From IMG/VR virus record IMGVR_UViG_3300032282_005183, positions 1 to 25,927 of that record: a stretch of 25,927 nucleotides of DNA; one strand, 5' to 3'. The position numbers and the translations under genes were made by a program. This document shows positions 1,219 to 24,191 of this stretch, piece by piece. Within the stretch, counting starts at the first letter, position 1, and every line of letters starts with the position of its first letter. The notes under the pieces were generated by a model. It did no database searches. It was not told where the DNA came from and saw only the letters and a list, made by a program, of their open reading frames with translations. Source of the stretch: a virus.

Positions 1219-1239
1219 TTGGTAAATCCAACTATTTTT
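1216..1239 (+). terminator. Intrinsic terminator after the clamp-loader operon
   Basis: A perfect 7-bp stem: TAGTTGG at 1216-1222 pairs with CCAACTA at 1228-1234 around the 5-base loop TAAAT, and TTTTT (1235-1239) follows at once. The stem begins with the stop codon of the gp62-like gene. This is the textbook layout of a factor-independent terminator. The same bases also form the inverted repeat and -33 box of the next promoter. Confidence 0.75.
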
Positions 1240-1249
1240 GTTATATTTA
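1218..1249 (+). promoter_or_regulatory. Bacteroidota-type promoter P1 with inverted-repeat -33 region
   Basis: The inverted repeat GTTGG-TAAAT-CCAAC (1218-1232) contains the -33 element TTGG. After nine bases comes TATATTTA (1242-1249), a match to the Bacteroidota -7 box TAnnTTT. The gap from the end of TTGG to TATATT is 19 bases, identical in the three other promoters of this type here. Transcription would start around 1253-1256, leaving an A-rich leader of about 10-13 bases before the ATG at 1266. Confidence 0.65.
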
Positions 1250-20368: not shown

Positions 20369-20815
20369 ATGAAAGAATATTATATCTACTGGTTCATAGG
20401 ACAGCCAGGTAGTGGAAAAACAACATTAGCAAAGAAACTTCAATTCTGGTTACAAACTGATAAAGCAAATTGGAGAAAATCAGTATTTCATATAGACGAA
20501 GAACAAATTAGAGATATATACGATATTGATATAGATACTACCGATGAGCATAATCAAATTCAAAATATTTGCGCAACAATCGGTTCATTTGCAAATTCAA
20601 CTGAACATGATGTAATAATATCAACCACTTCTCCATTCAGAGAAATCCGTGAGAAATACAAAAAAAAATACAAAATAAAAGAAATATATTGTCATAATAG
20701 AAAATTGAAAGATAAACTTGAATATTATCAACAACCTGAACAATTCTTTATTGAATTGGACACGACTAATAACGTAGATGAAACATTTAAGAAGCTCATT
20801 AAAATTCTTATCTAA
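20369..20815 (+). CDS. APS-kinase-like P-loop protein
   Basis: A 148-residue P-loop kinase-like protein. Walker A is G11-QPGSGKT18. VFHIDEEQIRDIY (about residues 39-51) matches the substrate-binding D-G-D-x-x-R region of adenylylsulfate kinase (CysC), and IISTTSPFREIREKY (about residues 88-102) matches the S-P-x-x-x-x-R lid segment. It is shorter than CysC (about 200 residues), missing much of the C-terminal part, so sulfate activation is uncertain. A nucleotide or polynucleotide 5'-kinase is an alternative, and the HAD phosphatase two genes upstream would be a natural partner. The start carries the AAAAAGTT leader. Confidence 0.65.
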   Translation: MKEYYIYWFIGQPGSGKTTLAKKLQFWLQTDKANWRKSVFHIDEEQIRDIYDIDIDTTDEHNQIQNICATIGSFANSTEHDVIISTTSPFREIREKYKKKYKIKEIYCHNRKLKDKLEYYQQPEQFFIELDTTNNVDETFKKLIKILI

Positions 20816-20847
20816 TTTGGAATATTCGGATTTTATTCGTATATTGT
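20816..20847 (+). promoter_or_regulatory. Bacteroidota-type promoter P3 before the Mom-like gene
   Basis: TTTGG-AATAT-TCGGA (20816-20830) is an imperfect inverted repeat (with G-T pairs) that carries the -33 TTTG. TATATTGT follows nine bases later at 20840-20847. TTTGG to TATATT spacing is 19 bases. The -7 box ends only five bases before the ATG at 20853, so the transcript would be leaderless or nearly so. Confidence 0.5.
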
Positions 20848-20852
20848 AGGAT

Positions 20853-21449
20853 ATGGCATTACAAGGTTATTGGGTACAAGAAACTACTTTTAATCATTCG
20901 GTTAGAAAGTTTCTAAAGAGATGGCATTACTCTGATTATGTCAACATCCAATCAAAACATACATTCTGTCTTTTTAGAGAAGGCAACTTTGGAATACCGG
21001 AAATGGTAGGTGTTTGTATTTACACACGACCAGCAGGACCTTCGGCGGGGCAGAGTTATTACCCTGAGGCGCCTGATAAAGTTTTAGAATTGCGTAGATT
21101 GTGTTTAATAGATGAAACGCCTAAAAACGCAGAATCGTTCTTTGTATCACGGACAATCAAATGGTTGAAAGGTAATACCGATTGGGAATTTATCTTATCC
21201 TATGCAGATATGGAGCAAGGGCATAGTGGGGTTATATATAGAGCATCCAACTTTGAATATCTCGGAGTGACCGGAGCAGGTAAGACTTTGGAAGTTGACG
21301 GTAAGAGGTTTCACATCAGGACACTATCTATGTTAGACCGACCTTATGGTGTTGAAATCAATCGTAGATATAAGGAGAAGGACCCGAATGTTAAAGTATT
21401 AGAAACGCTTCCGAAAAACATTTATATCTATAAATTGAAGAAAAAATAA
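20853..21449 (+). CDS. Mom-like DNA adenine modification protein
   Basis: A 198-residue protein of the phage Mu Mom type, GNAT-fold proteins that add a carbamoylmethyl (acetamido) group to adenine in DNA and so protect it from restriction enzymes. Typical segments are FLKRWHYSDYV (residues 20-30), MVGVCIYTRP, VLELRRLCLID (about residues 77-87) and NAESFFVSRTIKWLK. The most diagnostic block, SYADMEQGHSGVIYRASNF (about residues 116-134), is followed by EYLG. The length is close to that of Mu Mom (about 230). No Com-like translational activator is visible next to it. Its promoter P3 lies unusually close to the ATG. The next gene starts 42 bases later. Confidence 0.75.
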   Translation: MALQGYWVQETTFNHSVRKFLKRWHYSDYVNIQSKHTFCLFREGNFGIPEMVGVCIYTRPAGPSAGQSYYPEAPDKVLELRRLCLIDETPKNAESFFVSRTIKWLKGNTDWEFILSYADMEQGHSGVIYRASNFEYLGVTGAGKTLEVDGKRFHIRTLSMLDRPYGVEINRRYKEKDPNVKVLETLPKNIYIYKLKKK

Positions 21450-21491: not shown

Positions 21492-22100
21492 ATGGAAGAA
21501 CAAACCGAAGGATTTTTTCCAAATCTGGAAAACCGAATTACCAAGCGTGGATTGGGAGCAAGACCAATATTAGAATCGCAAATCAGAGCAGCACAAGAGA
21601 AATCAAAATCAGCATTGTCAGCTGCTAGAACTTTGGGTATATCTTATAACACTTACAAAAAGTATGCAAAGCTTTATGGGATATTTGAGGACTTAAAAAA
21701 CCCATCAGGTATTGGTATTGAAAGGAAGGTTGGAATAAGAAATACAAAGTATCATATAGAAGATTTAATAGATGGTAAGCATTTAAAATACCCGTTACAT
21801 AAATTCAAAAACAAATTATTTGATAGTGGATATGTACCGAAGGTATGTGGTAGTTGTGGATTTGGTGAGGAAAGAATAACCGATGGAAAGATGCCTTTGC
21901 TAATAGATTTTTTAGATGGTAATTTAAATAATAGAAAATTAGATAACATAAGACCTTTGTGTTACAATTGCTTCTTCCTTATAGTTGGAGACCGAAATGT
22001 GAAGCATTGGTATGAAGAGCATGGTATCGCTGATGAACCAACTGACGAAAATGAAAATGAGTACACAAACCCAGAAGCCGGAGAAGCCAACCAAATTTGA
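21492..22100 (+). CDS. HTH plus degenerate HNH-type zinc protein
   Basis: A 202-residue protein in two parts. Residues about 37-60 (SALSAARTLGISYNTYKKYA) look like a helix-turn-helix. From residue 113 the layout is that of phage HNH endonucleases: VPKVCGSCGFGEE with the first Cys pair, LIDFLDGNLNNRKLDNIRPLCYNC with the second pair. The catalytic His that normally precedes the DG-N turn (LDHINGD) is replaced by Phe, and the final Cys-x2-Cys-His is CYNCF. The zinc site looks intact and the nuclease centre lost. It may be a DNA-binding protein derived from an HNH enzyme. The 3' end overlaps the next gene. Confidence 0.7.
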   Translation: MEEQTEGFFPNLENRITKRGLGARPILESQIRAAQEKSKSALSAARTLGISYNTYKKYAKLYGIFEDLKNPSGIGIERKVGIRNTKYHIEDLIDGKHLKYPLHKFKNKLFDSGYVPKVCGSCGFGEERITDGKMPLLIDFLDGNLNNRKLDNIRPLCYNCFFLIVGDRNVKHWYEEHGIADEPTDENENEYTNPEAGEANQI

Positions 22101-22486: not shown

Positions 22487-22518
22487 TTTGGTAAATTCAA
22501 AAATTATTCTTATATTTA
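22487..22518 (+). promoter_or_regulatory. Bacteroidota-type promoter P2 for groEL
   Basis: The inverted repeat TTTGG-TAAAT-TCAAA (22487-22501) contains the -33 TTTG. TATATTTA lies at 22511-22518 after nine bases, with a 19-base spacing from TTTGG to TATATT. It shares even the loop sequence TAAAT and the TATATTTAATT stretch with promoter P1. The leader to the ATG at 22551 would be about 28 A-rich bases. Confidence 0.65.

Positions 22519-22535: not shown

Positions 22536-24191
<1,656 letters not shown>

Follow-up and report, generated by a model that had tools for sequence, protein, structure and literature searches.

The window analysed here is the whole of virus record IMGVR_UViG_3300032282_005183, a 26-kb fragment (25,927 nt) whose gene content comprises clamp-loader genes, an exonuclease, a long sugar/glycosyltransferase block, a small kinase, mom, an HNH endonuclease and groEL. 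The mom-family gene (20853..21449, + strand) starts with ATG and encodes a 198 aa protein with Pfam and PHROG matches and a predicted GNAT fold. A gap of 37 bp separates it from an upstream small P-loop kinase gene (APS-kinase-like; 20369..20815, +), and an HNH endonuclease gene follows it (21492..22100, +); this kinase-mom-HNH trio is common to the window and to loci L001 and L037. The HNH product may be a homing enzyme, or a nuclease to which DNA modified by Mom is resistant. A comparison with 50,697 phage records gave no near match to the window. The Mom protein has close relatives encoded at 51 viral-contig loci, the best being that of L037 (92% identity). Similar proteins, many of them annotated 'Mom-like DNA modification protein', are found in sequenced phages (276 records), but every one of these shares less than 60% identity with the window protein. 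The phages carrying this mom look like lytic T4-like phages of Bacteroidota, the lytic character being judged from the T4-like gene set.

The Mom protein and the modification it may confer

The identification of a Mom-type gene in an earlier note on this DNA is borne out by profile searches and by structural modeling. ORF 20853-21449 matches Pfam PF25680 (Mom) with 117.5 bits against a curated cut-off of 27.1 (E 8e-34) and phrog_1384 ('Mom-like DNA modification protein') at 3.7e-45, and a 27-sequence profile retrieves one solved structure, that of Mu Mom (PDB 8bv8; 1.3e-23), which is the inactive S124A mutant. The same entry is the best structural match of the AlphaFold model (pLDDT 85.7), with a Foldseek E of 4.1e-12 and a TM of 0.72; the comparison gives Z 18.1 and 3.3 A over 186 residues, the next entry reaching Z 14.4. 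The protein is only about 25% identical to Mu Mom (NC_000929) and about 43 residues shorter; family and GNAT-type fold are the same, and Ser124/Asp149 of Mu plus 18 further positions are invariant across 11 aligned sequences. Ser95 of the window protein corresponds to Mu Ser124 and is invariant in 27 aligned sequences and Mu; Asp119 corresponds to Mu Asp149, and both residues are invariant in 11/11 aligned sequences including Mu. Mu residues His58-Tyr59, Arg111, Asn121 and His183 are also found in the window protein. The two blocks on which the original identification had rested are genuine family signatures: in HYS (His25-Tyr26-Ser27), His25 and Tyr26 are invariant when the window protein is aligned with Mu Mom and nine relatives, as are Ser116, Asp119 and Gly126 in SYADMEQGHSG (residues 116-126).

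Comparison of the window and L037 mom genes (dN 0.045, dS 0.96, with synonymous sites near saturation; dN/dS 0.047) points to strong purifying selection. The ATG at 20853 is supported as the start codon because proteins of other lineages begin at about the same residue, straight after a stop codon upstream. Additional, longer Mom paralogues are encoded at L002:8057-8824, L009:8938-9702, L015:8944-9747 and L036:4334-6379, with up to three Mom genes per record. The first Mom gene in L002 and L009 follows a small HTH-like ORF of 66-67 aa; in L002, this ORF is itself preceded by a near-leaderless promoter.

The idea, also raised in the earlier note, that the sugar genes might serve an even larger DNA modification finds no support in the gene content. 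The sugar block contains glycosyltransferases, nucleotide-sugar epimerases, a PfkB-type kinase, methyltransferases (among them a C-methyltransferase) and a weak GT10 match, with nothing pointing to bases, and no enzyme for a larger modification of bases was detected. The thymidylate-synthase/hydroxymethylase family (PF00303) is absent from the window and present in one of 17 records (G005, where the gene is incomplete at the record's end).

GATC is scarce in the window (18 observed vs 66 expected). Its observed/expected ratio is 0.03-0.43 in all ten records scanned (the window and nine related ones), and it is the lowest-z tetramer in 5/5 records ranked; CATG, CTAG and TCGA are likewise avoided in most of the ten. 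Judged from composition, such avoidance is probably a sign of host restriction, and restriction at GATC is probably still felt. Strong GATC avoidance argues against a blanket protection of all adenines by mom. We considered whether it could prove or disprove that Mom is active and set this use aside; it merely restricts what can be claimed. Mom of Mu prefers an A followed by G or C.

A phage promoter class at the mom start codon

Directly upstream of mom lies the sequence TTGG-N19-TATATT (20817-20845), with the ATG 13 nt past the first T (T-12) of the -7 box. This is the apparently leaderless promoter previously perceived, and the spacing then given holds: the 8-base box TATATTGT stops five bases before the ATG. 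The -33 element TTTGG (20816..20820, +; TTTG at 20816-20819) is placed by a peak at the 19-nt spacing, and in the -7 element TATATTGT (20840..20847, +) the bases T-12, A-11, T-8 and T-7 conform to the sigma-A box of flavobacteria. With respect to the Bacteroidota sigma-A consensus (TAHHTTTG with a -33 TTTG), the -33 element and these four bases agree, while the consensus T-6 and G-5 differ; G-6 and T-5 of the window box match TAnnTTGY, the SM5 box reported from F. psychrophilum. The mom gene of L037 has the sigma-A consensus form TATATTTG, including positions -6 and -5. In F. johnsoniae, the -7 box is reported to span -12 to -5 and transcription to start 4-5 nt later (PMC6847099); the mom transcript is therefore predicted to begin at 20852 or 20853 (20852..20853, +), with a leader of 0-1 nt. 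At 3 of 67 comparable promoter sites the ATG is 11 nt from T-12, inside the start rule of 12-13 nt, so that either the rule is loose or some of these starts are wrong. The spacer of the mom promoter (window 20821-20840) contains TATTCG twice, 11 bp apart, in both the window and L037, a possible operator. Spacer conservation is not peculiar to mom, as the spacer of the exonuclease promoter is, by eye, also almost unchanged between the window and G004.

The 30-bp promoter block starting at TTTG is identical in the window and L037 (30/30), whereas the adjoining bases differ and the last 60 nt of the kinase gene upstream are 72% identical. Under a simple Jukes-Cantor model, the chance of 30 identical bases at the synonymous divergence of mom is ~7e-11. 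The same layout is found, with other genes on both sides, in a second lineage of 20 loci (L016-L032, L039, L047, L051; 5 sequence types), where TTGG-N19-TATATT precedes an ATG located 13-14 nt after T-12; 19 copies are exact and L022 has one changed base in the box. Altogether the promoter-at-ATG layout is present in 22/52 mom copies (51 loci and the window) and absent from 30. Of these 30, some have mom behind or overlapping another gene (L001, the L002-L015 loci, L033-L036 and others), and in the rest (L038, L040 and kin) a tRNA-like RNA precedes it.

This tRNA-like RNA is ~120 nt long, has a T-arm and an anticodon arm that is enlarged, and is found at L040:4871-4990 and in 18 further viral-contig stretches (L098-L115); the gene immediately after it is mom in L038 and the L040 group, and other genes elsewhere. 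Among nine sequences, 10 of the 24 predicted pairs show compensatory changes. ARAGORN calls no tRNA gene in it, and an Rfam search with the L040 sequence alone returned one weak tmRNA match below the gathering score. Its position beside mom was considered as a hint of a glycyl-tRNA donor, an idea that was discarded, since ARAGORN calls no tRNA and no amino-acid identity can be assigned.

The promoter class extends well beyond mom. When the window and eight related records were scanned piece by piece, spacer 19 yielded 67 coding-strand matches vs 5 on the opposite strand, and other spacers from 8 to 31 yielded 2-10 and 1-9, respectively; the records are mutually related, so the 67 sites are not independent. 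An ORF of at least 40 codons starts 11-15 nt after T-12 at 20 of the 67 sites, vs 0.9% of random positions. Five of these 20 near-leaderless ORFs are mom and 15 are other ORFs, two or three of the latter being doubtful by eye (a better downstream start, or an ORF over another sequence). An ORF starts 18-109 nt away at 33 of the 67 sites, and no ORF starts within 120 nt at the other 14, in some of which a tRNA-Leu-like sequence begins, by eye, at the predicted +1. Given the 15 non-mom ORFs, the suggestion that mom has leaderless translation as a control of its own is not supported: the arrangement is usual in this group of phages rather than reserved for mom.

In the window, the + strand has three copies of TTGG-N19-TATATT, all intergenic and just upstream of the exonuclease, mom and groEL genes. 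According to the scan, the sister promoters at 1219..1247 (+; exonuclease gene at 1266) and 22488..22516 (+; groEL at 22551) both have leaders. Between records the leaderless form comes and goes: the exonuclease gene starts at 24 nt in G004 and the window, but at 15 nt in G011. The class is nearly absent from the phages of the L033-L044 loci (forward/reverse matches: G006 0/4, G007 2/3, G008 0/3, G013 1/1, G014 0/1). Leaderless host genes of Bacteroidota are similarly built, with a TANNTTTG/TTTG-type promoter and little or no leader. They are reported to be rare in the hosts, with a leaderless share of 5.5% in F. psychrophilum, leaders below 10 nt for about 3.7% in B. thetaiotaomicron and leaders of at most 10 nt for 13% in F. 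johnsoniae (from 87% above 10 nt; PMC6847099); this range of 3.7-13% contrasts with 20 of 67 promoter sites here, a count of ORF starts and not of transcripts. In the literature on Mom, Mom-like genes with tRNA, bS21, leaderless mRNAs and promoters of Bacteroidetes phages, we found no report of a leaderless mom or of the promoter classes of these phages.

Expression timing and a second promoter class

The promoter class of mom also serves sliding clamp, exonuclease and groEL genes. In G001, there are 16 coding-strand promoters with spacer 19 and none between 35.2 and 100.9 kb, a gap that was noticed post hoc; this region encodes tail sheath, tail fibre, major head protein, portal and terminase (structural or packaging matches in 5 of the 10 proteins scanned). 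Early or middle expression of mom is probable, because its promoter class is common to replication and chaperone genes and was not found in the structural block of G001. In G004, the nearest relative with a long sequence, the stretch without strict promoters (1-36 kb) shows no recognisable structural genes in its ORF listing.

In G001, many structural genes are preceded by a TATTTATA box, with AGGAG in their leaders. A strand bias of TATTTATA is observed in G001 (29/14), G003 (29/6), G002 (23/4) and G012 (14/6), and was not seen in G004 (8/13) or G005 (6/6). AGGA or GGAG is found upstream of 1/34 genes of the TTGG class, 21/63 TATTTATA genes and 78/573 others; when only ATGs at least 30 nt from the start of the box are counted, the figures are 1/15 for the TTGG class vs 12/33 for TATTTATA (Fisher p 0.04). 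The TATTTATA boxes before structural genes in G001 (L059-L067), G002 (L087-L091), G003 (L068-L073) and G012 (L083-L086) resemble a late promoter class; the late box of T4 is TATAAATA.

Three of 17 records (G001-G003) carry a gene for bS21, which was not found in the window record. In G001 it adjoins the major head protein gene, as in the bS21-encoding freshwater Bacteroidetes phages described in PMC9723584, the main text of which does not contain the words promoter, leaderless, early or Mom. One may speculate, with little confidence, on a two-stage translation in which early and middle genes, including mom, would be read from TTGG-N19-TATATT with leaderless or A-rich leaders lacking a Shine-Dalgarno sequence, suiting host ribosomes with a hidden anti-Shine-Dalgarno, and in which late structural genes, with TATTTATA boxes and AGGAG leaders, would be read once the phage bS21 has altered the ribosome. 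The box, leader and bS21 patterns agree with the phages of PMC9723584 but amount to modest evidence, and the nearest relative, G004, does not show them. If one promoter class yields messages that are leaderless or poor in leader, and another more often yields Shine-Dalgarno leaders, this offers a testable idea of how a phage could exploit ribosomes that ignore Shine-Dalgarno sequences.

Interpretation and comparison with phage Mu

We propose that mom of the window encodes a Mom-family enzyme of GNAT fold that most likely adds an acyl-type group to adenines of the phage's own DNA, both the group and the target base being deduced from the Mom family; this modification would shield the DNA from host nucleases. 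The gene would be transcribed from its own promoter of the general sigma-A-like class of the phage (TTGG-N19-TATATT), starting at the ATG or one base before, and the resulting leaderless mRNA would be translated without Com or a Shine-Dalgarno leader, probably early or in mid-infection. We regard this scheme, taken as a whole, as reasonably probable.

The promoter may be real and mom nevertheless translated mainly from a longer read-through transcript coming from the kinase gene, the near-leaderless message adding little. This would agree with L001, where the promoter is missing from the kinase-mom-HNH trio and its genes lie only a few bases apart, and with the L002-L011 group, where mom is directly behind a helicase-like gene. 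The perfect conservation of the promoter between the window and L037 despite a dS of 0.96, and its recurrence in a lineage with other neighbours, speak against this arrangement, which we hold to be unlikely but worth keeping in mind. A switch of mom by an alternative sigma factor has a poorer standing still. It would account for the SM5-type (TAnnTTGY; PMC9723704) rather than sigma-A-type box TATATTGT in the window and 19/20 loci of the L016 group; however, L037 carries the sigma-A form TATATTTG, and 14 of the 67 sites end in GT, also before leadered genes and mixed with TA (24) and TG (16). As the tail of the box varies among all sites, we did not keep an SM5 sigma factor as the main reading and consider it improbable.

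As for the enzyme, the protein may be related to Mom but act on a different substrate (another base, RNA or protein) or transfer a different group, which would leave virion adenine unmodified. The low identity to Mu Mom, the up to three divergent copies in relatives, suggesting different tasks, and the general use of GNAT folds on proteins and small molecules all lean in this direction. The residues common to Mu and the window (among them Ser124, Asp149, His58-Tyr59, Arg111, Asn121 and His183 in Mu numbering) and the wide lead of Mu Mom among the structural matches lean the other way, and we think this alternative rather unlikely.

The preferred scheme, an adenine-acylating Mom expressed from a leaderless phage promoter, differs from the system of phage Mu. 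There, in a temperate phage, mom is the textbook example of DNA modification kept under very tight control, and its promoter carries GATC (Dam) sites. Here, the 200 bp upstream of mom (20653-20852) contain no GATC. The absence of a Com-like gene, as claimed in the earlier note, was confirmed with the Com family (PF10122), which exceeds the cut-off in none of 17 records (the window and 16 related ones, all fragments), with one sub-threshold match in G007 (E 0.016). Compared with the Mu operon, there is thus no Com, no overlapping regulator gene, no upstream GATC and no long leader. Mu mom is described as a C-activated late gene whose premature or excess expression is toxic (PMC4461284), whereas mom of the window has a general phage promoter at its ATG and would, unlike the late mom of Mu, be expressed sooner. 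Since a lytic phage kills its host soon, there may be less need for tight control of mom here. That a gene of the Mom family can stand behind an ordinary promoter, one that is apparently leaderless, suggests that the elaborate control seen in Mu is not required by the enzyme.
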